This document shows, piece by piece, positions 3,368-21,978 of a DNA stretch of 38,277 bases; position 1 is the stretch's first letter; every line of letters starts with the position of its first letter. Location: the NCBI GenBank assembly GCA_017633495.1, contig JAGBPE010000235.1, positions 1 to 38,277 on the forward strand, given 5' to 3'. The DNA is from Bacteroidales bacterium. Lineage in GTDB: Bacteria > Bacteroidota > Bacteroidia > Bacteroidales > WCHB1-69. A model generated the notes under the pieces. It had not been told where the DNA came from. It ran no database searches and saw nothing but the letters and a program-made list of their open reading frames with translations. A program made the translations under genes and the position numbers.

Positions 3368-4177
3368 TTATGTCCTGATAATCCTCACCCTTCCAGTTGC
3401 CTGGTTCTCTATTCCATTGTAGAAGAATGTGAACTCATAATAATAGATGCCTTCGGGACAGTCGCGGCCACCCCAAGTGTTCTGATAATTATTACTTTGA
3501 TAGACCACTCGACCATTCTTGTCGCGAACAATCAGCTTCGGAGACGTATACTGATCCAACCCTTCAATTACGAACAAATCGTTGACACCATCGCCATTTG
3601 GAGTAAACAGATTGGGGATTCTCAACTGCGTCGGCTTCGACCAGTCCACACTACCGTCGGAAAGATTCTTCAAGACAGGATCTTCAGCCAGCTGTTTAGC
3701 CAACGTGGAGTTGGCGGGTAGCACCTCCTGTTTGACATTCTGTTTCACAGGGGCCTTCTCGGTTTTATTTGAGACCTCCTGAGCGGGAACTTCCTCAGGT
3801 GCAGGGTTCTCCACAACAGGCTTCACCTCTTTCACCACAGGCAATTCCTCGGCAGGCGCCTCTTCAACAACTACCTTAGGTTCAACCACTTCCGATTCAA
3901 TCACCTCCTCTATCTTATCCATAGACTCCAACACGGCCAAGTCGTTGGGTTTGGAACTGCGATCAGGATGATACGCAAGCGTTCCAAGGGTTACACCTCC
4001 CAACACCAACAAACCTGAAACAACACCGATCACGGTTTTCTTCGCCACCGAAAGATTCGACCAAGACGAGGATTTACCCGTCGGCATCTCCACGTCCAAA
4101 CGCCCGCTCAACCTCTCCCATACATCCTCAGAGGGGCTCTTACTGTGTTCCTTCAACAAATCTTTAATTGTATTCAT
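3368..4177 (-). CDS. Putative membrane anti-sigma factor with C-terminal T9SS type-B (CHU_C) domain
   Basis: A 269-residue protein in three parts. Residues 1-46 are cytoplasmic and short, with the motif SPSEDVWERLSGRLD seen in short Bacteroidota anti-sigma/partner proteins. Residues 48-69 form one clear transmembrane helix (VIGVVSGLLVLGGVTLGTL), with no signal peptide. Residues 70-180 are a Pro/Glu/Val-rich spacer. Residues 186-269 are a gliding-motility-associated C-terminal domain: IPNLFTPNGDGVND, then W235-GG, then PEGIYYYEF, ending GRVRIIRT. Such domains normally direct cargo to the type IX secretion system. Here the topology would hold it in the periplasm, tethered to the inner membrane. 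It starts 30 nt after an ECF sigma gene, the usual sigma/anti-sigma order. The anti-sigma role is inferred from topology and context. Alternatively it is a membrane-anchored structural protein. Confidence 0.75.
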   Translation of the reverse strand: MNTIKDLLKEHSKSPSEDVWERLSGRLDVEMPTGKSSSWSNLSVAKKTVIGVVSGLLVLGGVTLGTLAYHPDRSSKPNDLAVLESMDKIEEVIESEVVEPKVVVEEAPAEELPVVKEVKPVVENPAPEEVPAQEVSNKTEKAPVKQNVKQEVLPANSTLAKQLAEDPVLKNLSDGSVDWSKPTQLRIPNLFTPNGDGVNDLFVIEGLDQYTSPKLIVRDKNGRVVYQSNNYQNTWGGRDCPEGIYYYEFTFFYNGIENQATGRVRIIRT

Positions 4178-4207
4178 TTGACTTTTACAATTGCAAAATA
4201 TAAAAAA

Positions 4208-4759
4208 CTAGTCTTTTTCCAATTTTAATCTTTCCATCAACCACTTCCTTCCCCGCATATACGAATTGCGGACAGCATTCTCCTTTTTGTCCAGCATTTG
4301 CGCAATTTCGGTGAAAGAGTATTCATCTACAGCCTTGAGGTTGAAAACCACCCGCATCGCTTCAGGCATTTGTTGGATCAGCTGCAACAGCTGATCCGCC
4401 ACAAGATTCGTTCTGATCTGTTCTTCCTCGTCAACATTCTCCAACAATTCCATATTCTCAGTGAGAATCTCCATGCGAAAACGACTGGAGTTGCGAAAAT
4501 GACTGATGGCAAAATTGAGCATCACTGATGTCACCCAAGTGCCAAAAGCACTTTTGTGTTGATAGGAGCCCAAATTTTTAAAGATCTGCATAAACCCCTC
4601 CATCAGCAAATCCTCCGCCTCTTCATCCGAACTGCTATAACGCCTACAAAGCCCGAACAGCTCCGACGAATACCTGTCATACAGCTGCCGTTGGCTCAAC
4701 CGGTCGTTTTTCAAACATCCAGCGATAATCTTTTCGATGTCAGAATCTATCTCCTTCAC
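4208..4759 (-). CDS. ECF-type RNA polymerase sigma factor (sigma-70 family)
   Basis: A 183-residue protein with region 2 at about residues 20-92 (DEEAEDLLMEGFMQIFKNLG for 2.2 and AFGTWVTSVMLNFAISHFR for 2.3-2.4). Region 4 is at about 122-178, with helix-turn-helix SFTEIAQMLDKKENAVRNSYMRGRKWL in part. There is no region 3, as in ECF sigmas. The start is a GTG at 4759; an in-frame stop lies just upstream, so no longer version exists. It precedes the putative anti-sigma gene by 30 nt. In the 50-nt gap before it I see no TAnnTTTG box, so it may be read from the DUF4837 gene or from a promoter of another class, perhaps its own. Its targets cannot be read from the window. Confidence 0.9.
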   Translation of the reverse strand: MKEIDSDIEKIIAGCLKNDRLSQRQLYDRYSSELFGLCRRYSSSDEEAEDLLMEGFMQIFKNLGSYQHKSAFGTWVTSVMLNFAISHFRNSSRFRMEILTENMELLENVDEEEQIRTNLVADQLLQLIQQMPEAMRVVFNLKAVDEYSFTEIAQMLDKKENAVRNSYMRGRKWLMERLKLEKD

Positions 4760-4809
4760 ATTATATTAGACGCGTGAAGTGTCGATTTTATCACATTTAA
4801 AATGAAAAA

Positions 4810-19034: not shown

Positions 19035-19062
19035 TTCCATTACTAATTTCTAATTATCTAAC
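19035..19062 (-). repeat. Heptamer-periodic array on the stop codon of the CUB/T9SS gene
   Basis: Plus-strand units CATTACT, AATTTCT, AATTATC, TAACC... repeat every 7 nt. On the minus strand the unit is close to AGAAATT/AGTAATG. The TAA stop of the minus-strand gene (19056-19054) lies inside. The array is a degenerate relative of the one at 15184-15218, with which it shares AATTAGTAATG. Confidence 0.6.
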
Positions 19063-21978
19063 CAAAGTCACCGTACCCGTGTACTCCTTGTCTTCCGCAT
19101 TCAGGTTTACAAGACGGATCAGGTAGATGTACACACCTTCGGGACACATTTGTCCGTATTTGTTGCGGCCGTCCCAATAATCGTAAGGATTCAGGGTGGA
19201 GAAAATCAACATGCCGGAGCGGTCGAAAATCTGCATCTGGTAATTGTCGGGATCCACGCCCTGACCTTTCGGAGCAAAAGTCTCGTTAACACCATCGCCA
19301 TCAGGCGTGAATGCATTGGGGATGTAAAAGAAGTAGGGCACTTCTACCGAAACGCGAGCCTTTATGGAATCCACACAACCGAACGTATCCGTAGCTGTCA
19401 GTGAGATAGTGTAATATCCAGAATGGGTATAATCATGTGTCACTTCCTCCACATTTTCCAAAATATTGACATTGGAGAAAATATCCCCGAAGTTCCAAAC
19501 CAAGTGATAATCACCGGAAGAGAGGCTCGTACAGGTCACTGTACCGACACCGTTTTCCACGTATATTTCAGTAGGTGAAGCCACGAAGGAGGGCACCGGC
19601 AGCGGCAATACTGTCACTGTGATATCATCCGTAACTTGACAGTTACCGATCATGGTGGCGGTCACCGTATAGGTGGTGGTCACCTGCGGGGAAACCGTGA
19701 TGGAGGAGGTATTTTGGCCACTGCTCCAATGGAACTCGTTGGATGAAGAGTGGGAAGCCGTCAGTGTGGTGGACTTGCCCAAACAGATGGTGTCGACACC
19801 CGAAATGACAGGCAGTTCCAGTTCCGTAACCAGCACTGTCACAGAGTCGCACTTGGTACAACCGTTGTCAAAGGTAACCGTCACTAAATAGGTGGTCGTC
19901 TCAGACGGGGAAACGACAGGAGTGGCAACCGTGTCACCGGAGCTCCAAGAGTAGCGCTCGGGGTGAATTTGCGGGTAATTCTGGAAATTCACACCCAAAG
20001 AAGCATTGTCATTCGGACAGATATAGTTGGTTCCTGTGCTGGTAGTGGCATCCACATCGGGAATCTCCACCTTGATGGTAACGGTGTCACGAAGAGTGAA
20101 CGGATCGCCAATGGAATTCGTGTACTTATATTCGGCGATATATTTGGTCGTTTCCGAAGGGCTCACCATAATTCTTGTATTCTTCGCGTGTGCATCATAA
20201 CTGATGATGTTTGCAGGAGAGACAGAATTGGCATACCACGTCAGCTCTGCATTTTCATCCAACGGAGTAATCGGGGTGAAACGCCAAGCCTCCTCGTCAG
20301 CCGTCCAACCAGTCATACCTCTGCCATTGGGAATCAAAATTTGGGAAGAGGTGTTGTTTTGCAAACCAATAATACCCTCATGGCGACTACTATTTGTGGA
20401 GGCACAACATGCTCTATGCTTCACATACACATCGATGATGTTCGTGCCTTCATAAATCACCATTTGGTAGGTATTGTAGTTGCTGGAACTGCTATGGTTG
20501 CCAAACAGACCGACATTCAAGTAGTTGAACACAAATGCGCGACACGGAGAGCTTCCAAGCACACCCACTCTGACCGCACCAGGAGTGTTGTAGCAATAAG
20601 AATTGTAATAATTACAGTCAATATCCTCATACACACCATAAATGCAATTTTTATAGTTGTACGGCACTGTCATACTTCCGCCGCCCATGGTCTGATTACC
20701 AGAAATACTCGTGGTATAGGGAGGTGAGGCGGGAGGATCACCGTATGCGTATGCACAAGAACCTGAGTGGTTATCCATGGCAATCAGGCCGTTAGTACCT
20801 GGCCACACGGTCGTGTACTGTTTTCCGAAGAAGATGAATGTAAACGGTAATTGGACCGCACTGAGCCAGTTATCATCGGAACTTGCATTAATACTGTTAC
20901 CCTGATTGAATTCGAAAATATGGGATTCAAACGGAATGGATTTCACCGTATAGTCGTTGGTGTATTGTCCCGTGGCGATAATTTCCGCCGAAAGCAGCAC
21001 AACCGGATTATTGCAATCAAAGTCAATTACATGCGGGTTTGGCACATCTGCGTAAGAACCACTTGGGACAATGGTGATACTCGGGCAGGCGCTACCGTCA
21101 GGACTATCGAAAAGTTCTGTAACACAAGAGATTTCGGCACGCCAACCTGCCTTGCTCACATCACCGGCAGCACCTACATAGACAAATGAGAGGGCATTGG
21201 TGCTGGAAAACAGCACCGGAGGCTTGTTACCCGTGGACGCGTCCAATGTGGAGGTACAGAACTGACCAATCAGACGCTTGTTGTTGTCGTAATAGAGACC
21301 GTCATACACCTTCAGCACACCATTGACAGCGAACTGGGTGAAGACACATTTGATATGCGATCCCGTAGGAGATGTAAACTGTGCAAATTGCGTTTCACCT
21401 TGGTTCTCGTTGTTGGAAGCGATATTGCCGTTCGGGCCGCCTGAATCATAGAAATAGGCGTTACAGGTGATATTGAAGACATCCTGTCCGAAAAGTCGGT
21501 TGCCTGGCAATGTGTCGAAGGCATAGACTTGCGCTACCCAACCACTCATTAAGCCCGGAATGTCCACATTATCAGAATGGAAGACAAAGGTCATGTTCTT
21601 TCCGGAAGCATAAAGTTCTCCGGGAGAGTTCACCAAATTGAATGCCCCAATCAGCGGTGCCGTGCAGGAGGGACCATCGTAAATCCACAATGTGTCGCCC
21701 TCTGACATCTCGAATTCTTCGAAATTGATATAGAGCACAGAATTGGTCATACTGATACGCAATGTCATCGTGTCACGCAAATTCTGAGCAAAATTGCCAT
21801 CCGGATCCTGATTTTCTCCCATTTCCGTCGGTGTGCCACCTGGGTCATAGAAAAAACGGGGCGAATCGTCAATATCACTCACCAAGGGTGCAGACCCCAT
21901 TATAATCGACTGGCTAATAGCAACTTGTGTAATCAACAACAATGATAACAACAAGGGTAAACGCAAAATTTTCTTCAT
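19054..21978 (-). CDS. Secreted CUB/PKD multidomain protein with T9SS type-B C-terminal domain
   Basis: A 974-residue protein with a signal peptide (1-22). Two CUB-like domains follow. The first is at about 40-155 (RFFYDPGG, DTLWIYDG); the second is at about 170-290 (YFYDSGG, VLKVYDG). At about 345-575 comes a segment resembling nidogen-type domains (LPFTFIFFGKQYTTVWPGTNGLIAM in part, WRFTP). Ig/PKD-like modules follow, with repeated WSSGDT/WSSGQNTSSI and TTTYTVTAT motifs and a PKD domain (VWNFGD, HDYTHSGYYTISLTATD). The end is a gliding-motility C-terminal domain: IPNAFTPDGDGVNETF, YDYWDGRN, PEGVYIYLIRL. It is likely exported by T9SS to the surface or released, acting as an adhesin or matrix protein. 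It is a single gene with its own promoter. Confidence 0.85.
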   Translation of the reverse strand: MKKILRLPLLLSLLLITQVAISQSIIMGSAPLVSDIDDSPRFFYDPGGTPTEMGENQDPDGNFAQNLRDTMTLRISMTNSVLYINFEEFEMSEGDTLWIYDGPSCTAPLIGAFNLVNSPGELYASGKNMTFVFHSDNVDIPGLMSGWVAQVYAFDTLPGNRLFGQDVFNITCNAYFYDSGGPNGNIASNNENQGETQFAQFTSPTGSHIKCVFTQFAVNGVLKVYDGLYYDNNKRLIGQFCTSTLDASTGNKPPVLFSSTNALSFVYVGAAGDVSKAGWRAEISCVTELFDSPDGSACPSITIVPSGSYADVPNPHVIDFDCNNPVVLLSAEIIATGQYTNDYTVKSIPFESHIFEFNQGNSINASSDDNWLSAVQLPFTFIFFGKQYTTVWPGTNGLIAMDNHSGSCAYAYGDPPASPPYTTSISGNQTMGGGSMTVPYNYKNCIYGVYEDIDCNYYNSYCYNTPGAVRVGVLGSSPCRAFVFNYLNVGLFGNHSSSSNYNTYQMVIYEGTNIIDVYVKHRACCASTNSSRHEGIIGLQNNTSSQILIPNGRGMTGWTADEEAWRFTPITPLDENAELTWYANSVSPANIISYDAHAKNTRIMVSPSETTKYIAEYKYTNSIGDPFTLRDTVTIKVEIPDVDATTSTGTNYICPNDNASLGVNFQNYPQIHPERYSWSSGDTVATPVVSPSETTTYLVTVTFDNGCTKCDSVTVLVTELELPVISGVDTICLGKSTTLTASHSSSNEFHWSSGQNTSSITVSPQVTTTYTVTATMIGNCQVTDDITVTVLPLPVPSFVASPTEIYVENGVGTVTCTSLSSGDYHLVWNFGDIFSNVNILENVEEVTHDYTHSGYYTISLTATDTFGCVDSIKARVSVEVPYFFYIPNAFTPDGDGVNETFAPKGQGVDPDNYQMQIFDRSGMLIFSTLNPYDYWDGRNKYGQMCPEGVYIYLIRLVNLNAEDKEYTGTVTLVR

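Follow-up and report, generated by a model that had tools for sequence, protein, structure and literature searches.

How is a sigma factor governed when the membrane protein encoded next to it ends in an export signal for the type IX secretion system (T9SS)? This question is raised by a gene pair on the minus strand of contig JAGBPE010000235.1 from a Bacteroidales bacterium of the WCHB1-69 lineage (assembly GCA_017633495.1), of which we analyzed a stretch of 38,277 nucleotides, termed the window. An extracytoplasmic function (ECF) sigma factor gene is followed here, after a gap of 30 nt, by the gene of a membrane protein with a single transmembrane (TM) helix and a C-terminal CHU_C domain. As judged from sequence comparisons, the two very probably form a sigma/anti-sigma pair with a regulon of exported proteins and T9SS cargo. 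With moderate confidence, we favor the fuller reading that the membrane protein is an anti-sigma factor resembling the Dma family, that its outer sensor is the T9SS export signal and that its sigma factor drives exported cargo by the mechanism proposed below. The locus comprises the following elements:

4208..4759, minus strand: ECF sigma factor gene, 183 aa with a GTG start, matching Sigma70_r2, Sigma70_r4_2 and TIGR02937.
3368..4177, minus strand: gene of the anti-sigma candidate, 269 aa, consisting of N-terminal module, TM helix, linker and CHU_C domain.
4040..4177, minus strand: residues 1–46, cytoplasmic module predicted to bind sigma, with invariant P15, W20 and D28, recognized by a hidden Markov model (HMM) of ECF partners.
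3971..4036, minus strand: residues 48–69, single TM helix by hydropathy (helix 44–68 in the structural model).
3716..3970, minus strand: residues 70–154, Pro/Glu/Val-rich disordered linker, with a predicted local distance difference test (pLDDT) score <50 at residues 72–149 and 18% mean identity.
3626..3715, minus strand: residues 155–184, conserved element preceding CHU_C, with invariant D166 and P167.
3371..3625, minus strand: residues 185–269, complete type-B T9SS sorting domain at the extreme C-terminus.
4769..4795, minus strand: predicted autoregulated ECF promoter TGTGAT-N17-CGTC, from upstream-region alignment and pattern match.

The sigma protein matched Sigma70_r2 (E 8.1e-14) and Sigma70_r4_2 (E 1.2e-13) in Pfam as well as TIGR02937 (E 6.8e-27). 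It consists of regions 2 and 4 without a region 3 domain, which fits the ECF class, and its best solved relative by sequence search is SigW (5wuq; E 1.2e-14). For the anti-sigma candidate, the strongest 19-residue hydrophobic window covers residues 49–67, the hydrophobic segment beginning at about residue 48 behind a conserved module of cytoplasmic type. On this hydropathy and the conserved module ahead of the TM helix, the protein appears to lack an N-terminal Sec signal peptide. Its C-terminus passed both curated cut-offs, with 68 bits for CHU_C (PF13585, residues 186–261; E 7.9e-19; cut-off 27) and 41.5 bits for TIGR04131 (cut-off 35), which by these models identifies it as a T9SS type-B sorting signal. 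The domain lies at the exact C-terminus, 81–83 residues from the PNxF motif in every ortholog examined. Together, these data bear out the initial annotation, made from the letters of the window, in its gene order with the 30-nt gap, the cytoplasmic N-terminus with one TM helix and a Pro/Glu/Val spacer, the complete CHU_C domain and the apparent lack of a signal peptide.

The AlphaFold model of the anti-sigma candidate was weak overall (pLDDT 59.7, predicted template modeling score 0.32), showing helices at residues 4–11, 17–30 and 44–68 among others and strands between 211 and 266; its interpretation was confined to the CHU_C domain. The CHU_C region of 9flp was the only convincing solved relative (E 1.4e-10, by sequence), the same search of structures yielding none for the linker and the N-terminal module. 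Pfam detected no FecR, RsgI or zinc-type anti-sigma domain in the protein at E up to 1. The genome also encodes a SprA homologue (2353 bits), indicating that a T9SS is present. Elsewhere in the window (19054–21978, minus strand), a 974-aa CHU_C protein is encoded, probably an ordinary T9SS cargo.

The amino-terminal module was compared with the partners of other ECF factors. For this survey 16 sigma factors were aligned and 80 genomes of the phylum searched, with 57 giving a match at E 1e-28. Of the 63 top-ranking non-own sites, 60 were fetched, and the gene following sigma was read. Removal of one locus without a partner open reading frame (ORF; L215) and two with spurious ORFs (L216, L224) left 57 usable partners. 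The strongest hydrophobic window begins at residue 39–62 in 45 of them, and 41 conform to a P..W..I..L regular expression. An HMM was then built from the N-termini of 51 partners, leaving out L183 and L228 (late starts), L192 and L212 (CHU_C-like, as is L183) and two overlong proteins. Against 1008 ORFs it recognized the window protein with E 9.4e-8; the top 17 hits were all ECF-partner proteins of the same layout, and the best ORF beyond these had E 0.0063. By this measure, the N-terminus of the window protein is homologous to those of Dma-like ECF partners across the phylum, which supports the sigma/anti-sigma type of pair assumed at the outset.

Outer-membrane barrels were the commonest Pfam matches among the 57 partners (OMP_b-brl_2 in 11 and OMP_b-brl in 9, possibly overlapping), and the sensor end of these proteins looks modular. 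Single partners (among L182–L241) match von Willebrand A, TonB-plug, carboxypeptidase-regulatory or PKD domains. Two Flavobacteriales partners (L122:2448-3470 and L138:2561-3616) carry the N-terminal module in tandem, with two copies ahead of the TM helix. The genome of the window encodes a further ECF partner of 173 aa (L056:1432-2505; G000:C137), with N-terminal module, TM helix and Pro/Glu linker and without a C-terminal domain.

The pair itself is conserved in relatives. Of the 30 genus loci fetched as best family matches, among them the one in the window, 29 encode sigma, and the exception, L039, is truncated where its contig stops. In a strict scripted test of adjacency 28 of the 30 passed; L046 failed it because its open frame starts far upstream, although the gap there was measured as 2 nt. 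These counts indicate that the pair is not a chance arrangement. Mean identity of 28 orthologs to the window protein was 51% for residues 1–33, 25% for the TM helix, 18% for the linker, 55% for residues 155–184 and 65% for CHU_C, suggesting that both ends are constrained and the tether only in kind. The spacing from TM helix to CHU_C ranges from 110 to 156 residues across 29 proteins (119 in the window protein). The proposed wider search for ECF genes directly upstream of TM-CHU_C proteins returned 15 of 80 named loci, the other 65 not passing: ten from Bacteroidales (by title mostly from ruminants), one from a Bacteroidetes metagenome-assembled genome (MAG) that is by title from Lake Pavin, two from 'uncultured bacterium' MAGs and two from Flavobacteriales MAGs. 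A full-length family search matched 104 of 104 genomes but was disregarded in judging the pair, many matches being to the CHU_C domain of long cargo alone.

A second ECF sigma/TM-CHU_C pair is encoded in the same genome (L004:297-1761; G000:C241), its two frames comprising 185 and 310 aa; a further CHU_C gene lies about 3.4 kb beyond it. By protein match this second pair occurs in 33 of 40 genus genomes, and sigma is adjacent in 25 of 30 fetched loci. The complete CHU_C domain would also suit an ordinary T9SS cargo protein standing by chance behind a sigma gene. Given the roughly 47 residues with an ECF-partner module ahead of the TM helix, the conserved gene order and this second pair, such a coincidence is hardly credible. 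Upstream of the sigma gene of the window lies one more feature, which by eye is a frequent neighbor in many orthologous loci, including L080 and L081:

4810..5814, minus strand: DUF4837 lipoprotein gene (PF16125, E 4.7e-71).

A close comparison is offered by the Dma family of Bacteroides thetaiotaomicron (Dma1/Das1, Dma2/Das2, Dma3), whose members are reported to combine an N-terminal anti-sigma domain, a TM helix, a disordered tether and a C-terminal barrel (PMC13088901). The window protein shares with them the N-terminal anti-sigma domain (predicted here), one TM helix, the long disordered tether, the adjacent ECF sigma factor and a C-terminal domain that reaches the outer membrane in Dma and possibly does so here (PMC13088901); its N-terminal module is homologous to ECF partners of Dma-like layout, Dma itself being compared by description. 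Dma ends in a β-barrel, whereas the window protein ends in a T9SS export signal. The Dma regulon comprises vesiculation and polysaccharide utilization locus genes, in contrast to the exported and T9SS cargo predicted here, and the adjacent cognate sigma factor of Dma belongs to ECF21. As it lacks a C-terminal outer-membrane barrel, we describe the protein as Dma-like and not as a Dma member. The comparison points to modularity among anti-sigma factors of the Dma type, with an exchangeable outer sensor of which the export signal is one version.

By analogy with Dma, the main rival explanation is that the protein is a surface sensor spanning both membranes. T9SS would insert or export the CHU_C end, so that the chain bridges inner membrane and cell surface and reads surface contact, a ligand or the envelope state, upon which sigma would make adhesins and enzymes; T9SS would thus be the route and not the signal. 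We consider this rather unlikely. It agrees with the layout of module, TM helix and tether common to Dma and to ECF partners, some ending in outer-membrane barrels, with IgGFc-binding and FN3 surface-type proteins among the predicted targets, and with the spacing of 110–156 residues, which if extended is enough for crossing a periplasm. However, a chain left through SprA would occupy SprA, and Pfam finds no ligand domain other than CHU_C in the anti-sigma candidate. Of the initially proposed periplasmic display on an inner-membrane tether, the tethering of CHU_C beyond the inner membrane stands; the periplasm is one option for its location and the two-membrane-spanning state another.

We next consider which genes the sigma factor would transcribe. 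No TAnnTTTG box was recognized by eye in the ~60 nt upstream of the sigma start, supporting the earlier suggestion of another promoter class; the ECF-type element TGTGAT-N17-CGTC is found instead at 4795–4769 of the minus strand, reading TGTGATAAAAT...ACGCGTCTA. The form TGTRAY-N17-CGWC recurs with small deviations upstream of the sigma gene in genus orthologs and is retained even in loci with a different upstream region. In the window (4757–4795, minus strand), 9 nt lie between the end of the predicted −10 box and the GTG start, and the distance is comparably short in orthologs, by eye, so that the sigma mRNA would be nearly leaderless. The upstream element of the second pair is similar, mostly with 16 nt between the boxes, not 17 (counted by eye in several loci), a spacing that may help separate the regulons of the two pairs.

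As a genome-wide probe, the loose pattern TGTRAY-N17-CGWCW was rejected, its hits falling below the reversed control (10 vs 25 in G000, 20 vs 26 in G029, 20 vs 23 in G031). The strict form of one lineage, TGTAACRAAAY-N12-CGACW, gave 65 hits in 14 of the 40 genus genomes and 1 for the reversed pattern, with ~0.014 per 3 Mb expected from base composition; nine of the 65 are sigma's own promoter. The 56 non-self sites were fetched and yielded 54 readable first ORFs (L297 and L301 were dropped at contig ends), starting within 150 nt of the site in 51 cases (median 56). A strongly hydrophobic, signal-like N-terminus was found in 50 of the 54 targets vs 16 of 45 control ORFs, defined as the longest ORF further along the same fetched stretches.

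T9SS sorting domains were likewise frequent. Pfam assigned PF18962 to 16 and PF13585 to 14 of the 54 targets (controls, 5 and 3 of 45), and NCBIfam TIGR04183 to 15 and TIGR04131 to 12. Because the PF18962 match is internal in L321, L336 and L340, a C-terminal sorting domain is counted for 27 targets and not 30, compared with 8 of the 45 controls (Fisher p 7e-4; 1e-4 with all 30 counted). None of ten targets inspected individually holds both sorting domains, the others being known as counts. As background, the 3.0 Mb of G029 contain 21 matches to CHU_C and 71 to the type-A domain. The remaining targets include a 150-aa secreted-type protein, lipoproteins, DUF6624 and FISUMP proteins, and no T9SS machinery family is among the Pfam and NCBIfam families listed for the targets. 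With a predicted regulon that is exported and in half of its members bears a sorting domain, the link to secretion drawn in the initial annotation goes well beyond guesswork.

Among the predicted targets, the ~150-aa secreted-type protein is the most widespread, being present in 16 genomes (L366:385-834, L314, L372 and others). It is preceded, or nearly so, by TGTAACRAAAY in ten genomes, by GTGATAAAAT in G000 and G005 and by TGTAACAT in four (G004, G016, G027, G037), the motif resembling the same genome's sigma promoter in each case; the TGTAATAAAA...CGTCTT variant also precedes CHU_C cargo (L377). The motif varies by lineage yet precedes the same gene families, the window's own genome included, where three further genes follow the own-promoter variant at one mismatch:

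Own-genome target 1: DUF6624 protein.
Own-genome target 2: FN3 protein of >1702 aa, cut by the contig end, with a partial PF18962 match (E 0.0021, below cut-off).
Own-genome target 3: 150-aa protein with no Pfam match.

The loose-pattern site C60:1064 was tried as a CHU_C target of this genome and rejected, its first gene showing only a PKD-like domain.

These targets also bear on whether CHU_C, as an Ig-like domain in the periplasm, might merely sense misfolding or envelope stress, with no relation to T9SS binding. We regard this as improbable, for the domain passes T9SS-specific curated cut-offs and lies at the exact C-terminus in orthologs, and T9SS cargo abounds in the predicted regulon.

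The favored reading, with the export signal as outer sensor, leads to the following mechanism. Residues 1–46 would hold sigma in the cytoplasm, while the TM helix would serve as an anchor from which a linker of ~120 residues carries the type-B export signal towards the outer membrane. Sigma would transcribe, besides the operon it belongs to, genes for exported proteins that include much T9SS cargo. The anti-sigma factor would itself be a T9SS client, whose CHU_C domain a free translocon captures; pull or removal would inactivate it, for example by regulated proteolysis, and the freed sigma would raise cargo synthesis. With the translocon blocked or occupied by cargo, CHU_C would stay uncaptured and the cargo genes off. 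With cargo and other exported proteins as predicted targets in place of machinery, raising cargo would be sensible with a free translocon and not with a blocked one, and capture by an idle translocon is thus favored as the activating event. We infer binding, capture, proteolysis and sign, and advance this capture mechanism tentatively.

Several observations weigh against the reading as a whole. The strict pattern is absent in 26 of the 40 genus genomes. The variant pattern gave 45 hits (17 sigma promoters, 5 already in the strict set and 23 read) vs 12 for its reversed control, indicating that some hits are chance and single hits unsafe; those read as resembling chance, coding or unclear were L375, L383, L384, L385, L389 and L393, and L371 in the own-genome search. 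Other ECF factors could also read the motif. The own genome has only 3 strong non-self sites vs 2 reversed-control hits at the 2-mismatch setting, and the gene at the C60 site encodes a 758-aa protein without a sorting domain. Half of the targets are without a C-terminal sorting domain (small secreted proteins, lipoproteins, FISUMP proteins), and the type-A matches of L318 and L347 are below the Pfam cut-off. Target orthologs enter the Fisher tests as non-independent rows, and the neighboring controls (8 of 45) seem richer in sorting domains than the genome at large, suggesting that cargo genes cluster. In the phylum survey just 2 of the 57 ECF partners carry CHU_C, and the partner HMM misses the protein of the second pair (L004; E 0.17 among the 1008 ORFs). 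Finally, a tethered client could jam SprA.

The proposed logic recalls the flagellar secretion checkpoint of FlgM and sigma28, in which secretion of the anti-sigma factor licenses late genes. The likeness is one of logic; FlgM is a soluble anti-sigma factor and uses type III secretion, unlike the membrane-anchored candidate and T9SS here. Closer in machinery is the PorA–PorXY–SigP route of Porphyromonas gingivalis, where a T9SS C-terminal-domain protein is reported to feed into an ECF sigma factor controlling T9SS genes (PMC7712824). Common to both is the tie between such a protein and an ECF sigma factor; PorA, however, is surface-located and acts via a two-component system, whereas here it is the apparent anti-sigma factor that carries the domain, and SigP targets T9SS component genes in contrast to the cargo genes predicted here (PMC7712824). 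Similarly, the SM6 sigma-ECF promoters of Flavobacterium psychrophilum are reported to have a CGT −10 box, to be linked to T9SS and to include a sigma/anti-sigma operon among their targets, as is predicted here; unlike here, T9SS components are among them as well (PMC9723704). Relative to these reports, ECF control of T9SS components is known, and a T9SS export signal on an apparent anti-sigma factor together with a predicted exported-cargo regulon appears new. Among the open-access literature matches listed, none described an anti-sigma factor that carries a CHU_C/T9SS signal, and none an ECF regulon made up of T9SS cargo.

The pair bears on the question of how cargo synthesis in Bacteroidota is adjusted to the capacity of T9SS. 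In the SigP and SM6 reports, regulation mainly concerns the machinery (PMC7712824, PMC9723704), and here cargo genes are the predicted targets. The export signal on an apparent anti-sigma factor and its cargo-rich predicted regulon make secretion-coupled transcription directly testable. Possibly, though this is somewhat speculative, the pair is the first sigma/anti-sigma checkpoint coupled to type IX secretion, with FlgM-like logic and several forms in Bacteroidota. If so, capture of the anti-sigma factor's export signal by the translocon would switch on the T9SS cargo regulon.
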